7,411 nucleotides of DNA from DASVDK01 sp036562265 [NCBI: Thermodesulfobacteriota bacterium]. GTDB lineage: Bacteria; DASVDK01. The stretch lies in NCBI GenBank assembly GCA_036562265.1, contig DATCKS010000609.1, forward strand, positions 1 to 7,411, in the 5' to 3' direction. The number at the start of each line of letters is the position of its first letter. Positions within the stretch are counted from its first letter, which is position 1. Of the stretch, positions 3,713-6,516 are shown piece by piece. The position numbers and the translations under genes are program-made. The notes beneath the pieces were generated by a model. It did not search any database. It was not told the origin of the DNA and saw only the letters and a program-made list of their open reading frames with translations.

Positions 3713-4684
3713 ATGAGGTTCCAGCCCCCCGACGCGAGTCGCTCCCCCCGCTTCGCGCAGATCTCGACCTTCATGCGCCTGCCGCACGTTCGCGACCTCT
3801 CCTCGGGGCTCGAGGTGGCGATCACCGGCGTCCCCTACGACGGCAGCATGTCCTACCGTCCCGGCGCCCGCCTCGGACCGAGGGCGATCCGCGACCAGTC
3901 GAGCCTCCTTCGGCCGTACAACCCGGTGCTCCGGGTCAAGCCGTTCGAGGTCCTGAACGCGGCCGACTACGGCGACATCGACATCGCGCCGAACTCCGTC
4001 GAGGCGAGCTACGAGCTGATCCAGGCCGAGGTGCGCCGGCTCGTCGACGCCGGCGTCTTTCCCATGCTGGTGGGGGGCGACCACTCGATCACCCTCGCGC
4101 ACCTGCGCGAGGTGGCGCGCCGCCACGGGCCGCTCGCCGTCGTCCACTTCGACAGCCACCTCGACACCTGGGACGAGTACTTCGGGAGCAAGTACTTCCA
4201 CGGCACCCCCTTCCGCCGCGCGGTCGAGGAGGGGGTGCTCGACAGCCGGAACTTCATCCAGGTGGGCATCCGCGCGTCGCTCTACGACGAGGCCGACCTC
4301 GACTTCCAGCGCCGGCACGGCATCGAGGTGATCCGCATCGACGACATCCGGGCAAGCGGCGTCGCCCGGGCCATCGAGCGGCTCGGCCGCCTCAAGGGGA
4401 AGCCCCTCTTCGTCTCCTTCGACATCGACGTGGTCGACCCCGCCTTCGCGCCCGGCACCGGCACGCCCGAGGTCGGCGGCCTCGACTCCTACGAGGCGCT
4501 CACCTTCGTCCGCGCCTTCGCCGGCTTCGACCTGGTCGGCTTCGACCTGGTCGAGGTCTCGCCCCTCTACGACGGGCCGGGTCAGGTCACCGCGCTCCTC
4601 GCGGCCAACCTGCTCTACGAGGCGCTCTGCGTGGTCGCCCTCAACAAGCAGGCCGGCCTCGCACGCTGGAAGACGGGCCGGTAG
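3713..4684 (+). CDS. speB: Agmatinase / guanidino-compound ureohydrolase (arginase family)
   Basis: This is a 323-residue binuclear-metal (normally Mn2+) hydrolase of the arginase family, which splits a guanidino group to release urea; agmatinase yields putrescine. Metal ligands are all present: His124 in GGDHS, Asp147/His149/Asp151 in HFDSHLDTWDEY, and Asp237/Asp239 in SFDIDVVDPAFAPGTG. The N-terminal GVPYDGSMSYRPGARLGPRAIR (39-60, named in part) and HGTPFRRAVEEG (163-174) resemble agmatinases and guanidino-acid hydrolases. The active-site strip reads GTGTPEVGG. As I recall, nickel guanidine hydrolases (GdmH) have Trp in this strip (GTGWPEPGG), so this looks like the classical type. The EVSPLYD end is followed by GPGQ before VTA, one residue longer than in E. 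coli SpeB. GGGAG lies 12 bases before ATG. The exact substrate (agmatine, guanidinobutyrate or other) is undetermined. Co-transcription with an ABC importer suggests an imported substrate. Confidence 0.85.
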   Translation: MRFQPPDASRSPRFAQISTFMRLPHVRDLSSGLEVAITGVPYDGSMSYRPGARLGPRAIRDQSSLLRPYNPVLRVKPFEVLNAADYGDIDIAPNSVEASYELIQAEVRRLVDAGVFPMLVGGDHSITLAHLREVARRHGPLAVVHFDSHLDTWDEYFGSKYFHGTPFRRAVEEGVLDSRNFIQVGIRASLYDEADLDFQRRHGIEVIRIDDIRASGVARAIERLGRLKGKPLFVSFDIDVVDPAFAPGTGTPEVGGLDSYEALTFVRAFAGFDLVGFDLVEVSPLYDGPGQVTALLAANLLYEALCVVALNKQAGLARWKTGR

Positions 4685-4695: not shown

Positions 4696-5745
4696 GTGCC
4701 GGGTCCCGAAATCGCCACCATCCGGGCCAGGACCATCCTCACACCGGCGGTGGGGTATATCTCGGGCGGCTACACGCACACGCTCAACCCGTACCAGGGC
4801 TGCGGCTTCGGGGCCGACCTGACCGACCTGTCCGATGCGACGGCCGGCGACGGCGACGCCGGCGGCCGCGGCGACCGCGGCTGCCCCTACTGCTACGTCC
4901 GCCGCATGCCGCTCGCGCTCTTCGGCCCCGGGCCCTGGGGGTCGTGGGTCACCGCCAAGGTGAACGCGGCCGACCTCGTGCGCGAGGAGGGGCGCCGGGG
5001 ACGCCTCGCGCTCGCCCGCATCTTCCTCGGCTCGGCCACCGACCCCTACCAGTTCGTCGCGGAGAACCGCTTCCGCCTCACGCGCGCGGTTCTCGAGGCG
5101 CTGGTCGACTACCCGCCGGCGCACGTCACGGTCCAGACCCGTTCGCCGCTCGTCGAGCGCGACTTCGACCTCCTCGTCAGGCTCGGTTCGCGCGTCCGGC
5201 TCTCGATGACGATCGAGACCGACGACGAGGCGGTCCGCCGGGCGATCACCCCCACCACGCCGCCGGCCGCGCGCCGCCTCGAGTCGCTCCGCCGCGCCCG
5301 CGCCCTCGGCATCGAGACCCAGGCGGCGATCGCGCCGGTCCTCCCCTGCCACCCCGAGCGCTTCGCCGACCTGGTGGCCGAGGTCGCCGACCGCGTCTAC
5401 CTCGACAGCCTCTGGATCGGCGACGGCGCGCGCGGCGCCCGCAGCGCGGCCCTCGGCATGCCGCGCCGGCTCCGGGCGATCGGCCGGGGCGACTGGGTGA
5501 GCCGCGACGCCCATCTGCCGCTCTACCATGCGCTCGTCGCGCGCATGGGAGAGGCGCGCGTGCACGCGGCCGAGATGCGGGGTGCGCAGGCCCAGGCGGG
5601 CGGCTCGCGGCCCTCGCCGACGCCGTTCGAGGCGGGCGGGCCGCACGGTTCGGCGCGTCCGGCCCCTGCCCGGCCCGAGCAGTTCGACCTCTTCACGCTC
5701 GACCCGCGCTTCGCGCCCGGCCGCGACCGGCAGCGCGGCCGCTGA
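4696..5745 (+). CDS. SPL-family (COG1533-like) radical SAM protein with expanded cluster motif
   Basis: The 349-residue product shows the SPL-like order: NPYQGC (31-36), CPYCYVRR (63-70), PWGSWVTAKVNA, IFLGSATDPYQ, the VQTRSPLVERDFDLL strand and SMTIETDDEAVRRAITP. These are hallmarks of radical SAM proteins related to spore photoproduct lyase. The cluster cysteines are Cys36, Cys63 and Cys66, giving CX26CX2C rather than CX3CX2C. The extra 23 residues are Gly/Asp-rich and cysteine-free. The only other cysteine is Cys218, and nothing matches the hydrogen-donor cysteine about 43 residues past the cluster in B. subtilis SPL, so a true spore photoproduct lyase is unlikely. The C-terminal 50 residues are Pro/Ala/Gly-rich and contain QFDLF. 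The reaction is unknown. Start is GTG, with AGGAGG 7 bases upstream. It is the last gene of the operon. Confidence 0.85.
   Translation: MPGPEIATIRARTILTPAVGYISGGYTHTLNPYQGCGFGADLTDLSDATAGDGDAGGRGDRGCPYCYVRRMPLALFGPGPWGSWVTAKVNAADLVREEGRRGRLALARIFLGSATDPYQFVAENRFRLTRAVLEALVDYPPAHVTVQTRSPLVERDFDLLVRLGSRVRLSMTIETDDEAVRRAITPTTPPAARRLESLRRARALGIETQAAIAPVLPCHPERFADLVAEVADRVYLDSLWIGDGARGARSAALGMPRRLRAIGRGDWVSRDAHLPLYHALVARMGEARVHAAEMRGAQAQAGGSRPSPTPFEAGGPHGSARPAPARPEQFDLFTLDPRFAPGRDRQRGR
4813..4881 (+). repeat. Repeat-built 69-base in-frame insertion in the radical SAM cluster motif
   Basis: These 23 codons lie between Gly39 and Cys63, exactly where canonical proteins go from CxxG straight to the second cysteine. 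The stretch is made of short repeats: CCGACCTG occurs at 4814-4821 and again at 4823-4830 (a 9-base period giving ADL-TDL), and GGCGAC occurs at 4846-4851, 4852-4857 and 4870-4875. This suggests growth by replication slippage, or a natural subfamily loop that has become repetitive. Confidence 0.55.
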
Positions 5746-5865: not shown

Positions 5866-6516
5866 ATGCAGGCGAAGGGCGGGTGGATCGCCGTCATGGC
5901 CGGCGCGATGACGATCGCGCTCCTGGCGGCGGGCTGCGGGACCGCGGACGAGGGGGGCGTCGGGTCGGTGAGCTTCGGGAGCGTGGCCGCGCTCGACGGC
6001 ACGGTGCGCGAGGACGGCGCCGTCGACACGTCCGGGCAACCGATCGTCGGCGGCGCCGGCGGGTCGCTCCACCGGGCGTTCTTCTCGTTCGACCTGAGCG
6101 GCCTGCCCGCCGGCGCGACCGTCCGGGCCGCGACCCTGAGCCTCTACCAGGGCGCGACCGTCGGCAACCCCTTCGGTCCCGGCCCCAGCAGCTCGCAGAT
6201 GGGCGACGTGGTGGTCGACCTGGTCGACTTCGGCGCGACCCCGGCCGGCGTCGAGTTCGAGACCGCCACGGTGCAGCCGAACGTCGGCACCCTCTCGACG
6301 AGCCACGCCGAGGGGTGGCGTCACCTCTCGGTCACCGAGGCCGTGCAGGACGCGGTGACGTCGGGCCGGCGCTACGTCCAGTTCCGCCTCCGCTTCTCCC
6401 GCGACGACACCTACGACAGCACCACGGACTACACGTGGTTCGTCGACGCGCTCTGCCTCGGCTGCTCGTCGGGCAACCCCGTCCCCCGGCTGGACGTCGA
6501 GTACACCGCCGACTAG
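5866..6516 (+). CDS. Lipoprotein with a DNRLRE-type beta-sandwich domain
   Basis: The 216-residue product has a lipoprotein signal peptide: Lys4, a hydrophobic stretch (residues 7-22) and the lipobox region LLAAGC with Cys24 as the lipidated residue. The mature part, from about residue 30, is one beta-rich domain. FFSFDLSGLPAGATVRAATL is the clearest segment and matches the signature of DNRLRE (CBM96-like) domains, which occur in surface proteins and polysaccharide-binding or cell-surface proteins. The aspartate after the lipidated cysteine region (GTADEGG) is not directly at +2, so outer-membrane sorting is possible but unproven. A CLGC pair (Cys197, Cys200) lies near the C-terminus. No catalytic domain is attached, so the role is unknown, perhaps a structural or glycan-binding envelope protein. 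GGAGGG upstream supports ATG 5866. Confidence 0.75.
   Translation: MQAKGGWIAVMAGAMTIALLAAGCGTADEGGVGSVSFGSVAALDGTVREDGAVDTSGQPIVGGAGGSLHRAFFSFDLSGLPAGATVRAATLSLYQGATVGNPFGPGPSSSQMGDVVVDLVDFGATPAGVEFETATVQPNVGTLSTSHAEGWRHLSVTEAVQDAVTSGRRYVQFRLRFSRDDTYDSTTDYTWFVDALCLGCSSGNPVPRLDVEYTAD

Follow-up and report, generated by a model that had tools for sequence, protein, structure and literature searches.

A predicted SPL-like radical SAM protein with CX26CX2C spacing and its long-loop relatives

Radical SAM enzymes are usually recognised by the cysteine spacing CX3CX2C, and annotation based on this motif could miss genes with another spacing or label them broken. A gene of this kind was found in a 7,411-nucleotide stretch of DNA (contig DATCKS010000609.1, hereafter the window), where the three cysteines of the motif read CX26CX2C. 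The locus thus raises the question of whether the gene is damaged, or wrongly assembled, or whether it carries a natural form of the loop that holds the iron-sulfur cluster. In the following, Xn is used as shorthand for CXnCX2C.

The gene product and its cysteine motif

The gene (4696..5745, + strand) has a GTG start and encodes 349 amino acids with no internal stop. Its product, which we take to be of the COG1533 type, contains a radical SAM domain as judged from the Pfam profile PF04055 (Radical_SAM; E 2.1e-12, 47.9 bits against a cut-off of 29.5). The best-matching stretch began only at residue 61, just ahead of the second cysteine. Translation placed cysteines at positions 36, 63, 66 and 218, and the spacing formed by the first three is CX26CX2C rather than CX3CX2C. 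An earlier note on this DNA had located this motif at 4801-4893, and both coordinates and spacing proved exact when compared with the codon positions of C36, C63 and C66. The same note had regarded these three as the only cysteines available for a cluster; they are present as described, but the fourth, Cys218 (5347..5349, + strand), which lies outside the motif, had been overlooked.

Cys36 (4801..4803, + strand), the putative first cluster cysteine, is part of an NPYQGC motif and was invariant in the alignments inspected, including one of 46 rows. The putative second and third cluster cysteines form Cys63-Pro-Tyr-Cys66 (4882..4893, + strand; codons 4882-4884 for C63 and 4891-4893 for C66), directly followed by Y67, and C63, Y65, C66 and Y67 were all invariant in the 46 rows. 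The same applied to the TDPYQ motif at residues 115-119 (5038..5052, + strand). Between FG and CPYC lie the extra residues 40-62 (4813..4881, + strand), which are rich in D and G. Their number, given as 23 in the earlier note, is right in relation to X3 proteins, but comes to only 19 against X7 and 15 against X11 relatives.

To obtain a predicted structure, AlphaFold2 was run on the window protein together with 45 relatives, giving a model with a mean pLDDT of 78 and a pTM of 0.77. Between residues 81 and 290 the blocks had values of 78-99, while residues 41-60 of the loop, predicted to be disordered, and residues 297-348 were below 50, and the value was ~54 over residues 61-70, the site of C63 and C66. 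The model of an X11 relative (L012) had a mean pLDDT of 86.9, with ~52 over residues 41-60, which include both the loop and the cysteines. Six entries for spore photoproduct lyase (SPL) led both lists of fold matches obtained with the predicted window model (Foldseek, 3.3e-07), and the best VIA-align match was the SPL structure 4fhf (Z 18.1, 3.4 A over 236 residues). When solved structures were searched by sequence with the single protein, no convincing match was obtained (best E 0.11), and a profile search returned RlmN (6fz6) as its sole match (E 0.0048). These two models, of an X26 and an X11 protein, speak for an SPL-like fold with a loose loop, but give no support for how the cluster site is arranged.

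Relatives with a long loop

A profile scan of genome contigs found 369 relatives. The 80 best were retained, mostly from Bacilli and with 38-51% identity. The same contigs yielded no relative when scanned with the single protein. The Bacilli copies that were read had CX3CX2C (e.g. CAFGCxYC), except for those of two Alicyclobacillus species with CX11CX2C. CX7CX2C was observed in two loci from MAGs, of which one carries the title Candidatus Binataceae and the other Proteobacteria. Genomes of the class to which the Binataceae locus belongs (called Binatota-type here, a lineage label that follows the titled loci) were then covered more widely, and 30 of the 148 matched at 1e-60. CX7CX2C was present in 29 of these (e.g. 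CAFGDNGGCPFC) and CX5CX2C in the remaining one (L156). Across the phylum that includes the Binataceae genome, 35 of 395 genomes matched at 1e-25 and the five best were X7; 23 of the 25 weaker loci (L102-L126) could be read, all as X3, with L108 and L111 unmatched by the pattern, and five more genome matches came without a locus. The order of Alicyclobacillus gave matches in 19 of 59 genomes (two X11, 17 X3).

Beyond these groups, samples of 398 genomes each from Pseudomonadota and Bacillota contained no long loop other than a single X11. The only match in Pseudomonadota was an X3 protein, which is Bacilli-like and belongs to the centre genome itself, and the six matches in Bacillota comprised the X11 and five X3. 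Scans of viral contigs revealed three CX3CX2C relatives and no long-loop member. Plasmids contributed 17 records, none above 43% identity, and the eight that were read (L001-L008) all had CX3CX2C. This was also the spacing of the remaining relatives read, apart from a CX6CX3C group described below.

Loop lengths were tabulated for reading frames with [TS]DPYQ, with duplicate loci counted, and the 160 rows comprised 113 X3, 37 X7, 5 X11, 1 X26 and 4 unread by the pattern. A deduplicated set of 149 rows, read with a wider pattern, held 117 X3, 29 X7, 2 X11 and 1 X26. L156, which has TDPFQ, and L183-L187 fell outside the [TS]DPYQ filter and were read separately, L184 and L186 excepted. All X7, X11 and X26 rows of the loop table had CP[YF]C after the loop. 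The long-loop relatives were 49-55% identical to the window protein, and some CX3CX2C copies from Bacilli reached 54-58% over the stretches aligned (58% for L056), so that raw identity alone does not plainly show a closeness to the long-loop proteins. No relative above 58% identity was found; those found were about half identical to the window protein.

Some loci stood out during this survey. L183, L185 and L187, from the Binatota-type class, belong to a related SPL-like group with CX6CX3C (e.g. CTFGRTLCGVGC and CAFARALCGTFC), and L186 was unmatched by the pattern. CX6CX3C was not found among the papers listed when it was searched jointly with 'radical SAM' or CX5CX2C. A Bacillota copy (L181) has an in-frame TAA shortly ahead of the cysteine motif and is probably a pseudogene or a sequencing error. 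A Bacilli-type copy on a 10.6 kb contig of Sphingomonas sp. PsM26 (L091) had rows from Lysinibacillus and Cytobacillus as its neighbours in the tree, and probably represents contamination of that assembly.

Phylogenetic trees were built with the loop residues cut out, and the long-loop proteins and the window protein fell on one side of a branch with an SH-aLRT support of 95 (149 rows without the X5 protein) or grouped together with a support of 98 (90 rows including X5; nine loci were omitted, as were two out of every three Bacilli rows). In a third tree, from which all of the cysteine motif and 11 long-branch loci had been dropped, the support for this clade was 81. All three were quick trees with SH-aLRT support only, and the CX6CX3C group was outside them. 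The X11 pair were the best matches of the window protein by E-value, and in each of the three trees no other rows were closer to it by path. Beyond this pair, some X3 rows lay nearer by path than X7 rows in the 90-row tree and in the tree without the motif. The window protein branched first within its group on a long branch (length 0.82-0.95), and its exact place in the group is therefore not firm. As far as these trees can tell, the long-loop proteins and the window protein form one clade. The earlier note had asked whether a clade shares a long loop at this point, which is the case for the X5, X7 and X11 relatives. The window protein does not stand alone against a CX3CX2C background, since these relatives have a stretched loop at the same point.

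Origin and possible role of the loop

Accordingly, we hypothesize that the window protein is one of a small SPL-like subfamily of radical SAM enzymes whose first two cluster cysteines have been moved apart by added residues (X5, X7, X11 and X26), and we give this reading a probability of roughly 0.6. One [4Fe-4S] cluster would still be ligated by C36, C63 and C66, with SAM binding to its open iron. The added residues would bulge outward as a flexible, solvent-exposed loop, with the loop ends sitting where the ends of a normal short loop sit, so that the three cysteines could keep their usual arrangement. SAM binding and reductive cleavage would then proceed as in canonical enzymes, and the loop would be tolerated rather than selected.

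It could also be imagined that the long loop has acquired its own role, either as an active-site lid or in docking an electron donor or a substrate partner, and has been kept by selection. A loop of exactly seven residues recurs in 29 genomes, and G62-C63-P64 was invariant in nine aligned long-loop rows, suggesting a constraint on the loop end. However, the residues between FG and GCP vary among the X7 members and loop length differs between lineages, while pLDDT was low in the X26 loop and in that of the X11 model (~52 over residues 41-50). Nor did the gene neighbourhood point to a partner: frames were listed in four long-loop loci (L012, L013, L024 and L082), and none of the 7 chosen neighbours from three of them that were identified with Pfam recurred. 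We regard such a selected role as unlikely.

The neighbours of the window gene itself are an agmatinase-type gene directly upstream (3713-4684; TIGR01230, 232 bits against a cut-off of 174) and, downstream, a gene for a DNRLRE-domain protein (5866-6516; NF033679, 1.2e-10) with a start that looks lipoprotein signal-like by eye. No agmatinase like that of the window was among the 7 Pfam-identified neighbours of the long-loop relatives; other frames in those loci were seen as translated starts only, and no function could be drawn from the four neighbourhoods. The disordered C-terminal tail of the window protein contains QFDLF (5680..5694, + strand), which we take to resemble the pentapeptide that binds the sliding clamp. 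When the 60-residue tail was shuffled, a pattern of this kind, chosen after QFDLF had been seen, came up in 0.02% of cases. The last residues of sister-family proteins are QLSLF (L007) or QESLF (L008), and no QFDLF-like pentapeptide was present in the X7 and X11 proteins listed.

Another explanation is that the insert arose by slippage in one strain, or by an assembly fault, on an ancestor with a shorter loop, in which case the protein would be dead or its true loop shorter. X26 is known from one contig only, and the insert contains short repeats, as the earlier note had pointed out: CCGACCTG occurs twice (4814 and 4823) and GGCGAC three times (4846, 4852 and 4870). The named repeats are thus real, but their density is ordinary for a window with a GC content of 73%. 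Of all 69-base stretches in the window, 10.9% contain some 6-mer at least three times and 19.4% some 8-mer at least twice. Tandem arrays detected by TRF at the insert were short and imperfect (best score 49). The repeats therefore tell little about the origin of the insert and are weak evidence of slippage.

Further observations speak against a damaged gene. The length of the insert is a multiple of three, and its GC content by codon position (0.87/0.65/0.96) matches the composition of the rest of the gene (0.75/0.57/0.95). Conservation reaches at least 97% at 58 columns in the 45 relatives, and the window protein keeps 57 of these, the exception being I22 for L; when the other rows were each compared with the remaining 44 in the same way, a mean of 0.5 columns and up to 5 were missed. 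This bears out the view of the earlier note that the insert is in frame in an otherwise well-conserved gene. Moreover, a long loop is to be expected in the window protein because the relatives that group with it have long loops. As the closest relatives are at most 58% identical, slippage or an assembly fault in one strain keeps some room, and we consider it quite improbable overall.

The alignment showed further indels in the window protein, namely a single added residue that separates TDPYQ from E123 and a gap of four residues around position 99. At the former site (5050-5064) the window has QFVAE, where relatives have QGAE or QPxE, and L156 likewise has one more residue there by eye (QPRLE). 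An intein remnant was also considered as the source of the insert and set aside, the X5, X7 and X11 relatives providing the simpler series; one NCBIfam sister model is the intein-containing form of Rv2578c. Finally, a different ligand set for the cluster, e.g. C63, C66 and C218 with C36 free, for which the protein does have a fourth cysteine, is very improbable given that C36 is invariant in 46 aligned rows and position 218 is N or H in eight aligned long-loop relatives.

The window gene thus seems to stand at the far end of a natural range of loop lengths and does not look like a broken gene. More tentatively, it can be proposed that this is an active SPL-like subfamily in which the hallmark spacing is free to grow, through X5, X7 and X11 up to X26, beside the related CX6CX3C group, and that, of all radical SAM cluster sites recorded so far, the one in the window protein has the longest loop separating the first two cysteines; we are less than convinced of this wider claim. 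The spelling 'CX26CX2C' was not found in a literature search covering few subscription papers. If natural, the series X3, X5, X7, X11 and X26 in SPL-like proteins would offer a way to test how far the cysteines can be separated before cluster binding or SAM cleavage is lost.

Comparison with known systems

Among proteins of known structure, SPL is the closest to the predicted window model (Z 18.1, as above), and the two also share a tri-cysteine site with a CxYCY pattern, in which Y65 and Y67 of the window protein are placed as Y97 and Y99 of SPL. Roles for these tyrosines and for C141, the essential hydrogen-donor cysteine of the Bacillus subtilis enzyme, are given in passages of PMC3742179. 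In contrast, identity in the fold alignments was only 9-15%, and the SPL motif is CX3CX2C against CX26CX2C in the window. The hydrogen donor of SPL lies 43 residues past the last cluster cysteine, whereas the window protein has no cysteine between C66 and C218. Judged by position rather than by a residue-level alignment with SPL, a counterpart of C141 is thus absent, and the window protein resembles SPL in its predicted fold but is most probably not itself a spore photoproduct lyase. A role in DNA repair is suggested by the modelled fold alone.

By sequence, the best-matching named families were the NCBIfam PA0069 family (NF033668; E 7.4e-26, 91 bits against a cut-off of 360), the Rv2578c family (NF038135; E 8.7e-26, 90.7 bits against 430) and the mobile-pair-B radical SAM family (E 4.5e-18, 66 bits against 410). 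For every NCBIfam family matched at 0.01, the window protein scored well short of the cut-off, and nine long-loop alignment rows, the window included, matched the same four families at 1e-5. The two members of these named families that were read (L007 and L008) have CX3CX2C. This is also the spacing read in Bacilli radical SAM proteins other than the X11 pair (from Paenibacillus, Bacillus and others), which showed 38-51% identity over most of the protein by tblastn.

Stretched first segments have been described in other radical SAM families. In QueE (7-carboxy-7-deazaguanine synthase) the spacing is CX14CX2C, and passages of PMC4389238 describe this enzyme as canonical with one extended loop. 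The segment that is lengthened is the first one, as in the window protein, but QueE belongs to another family and its loop has 14 residues against 26; it was not among the best 50 rows of either fold list, which excludes no likeness. The same passages give CX5CX2C for HmdB and treat other cluster spacings as accepted within the radical SAM superfamily. PoyC and PoyB have CX7CX2C, as do the Binatota-type relatives, and PoyC is active according to passages of PMC5682303 and PMC11285071. These two differ from the window protein in being B12-dependent methyltransferases of another subfamily, with X7 against X26. The suggestion of the earlier note that the locus encodes an atypical radical SAM cluster-binding loop is thus right if the enzyme is active, with the reservation that stretched CXnCX2C motifs have already been described in QueE, HmdB and PoyC, at least in the passages cited. 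On the evidence of the sequences compared here, the stretched loop appears to be of a type already known elsewhere, to which the window protein would add the new length of X26.
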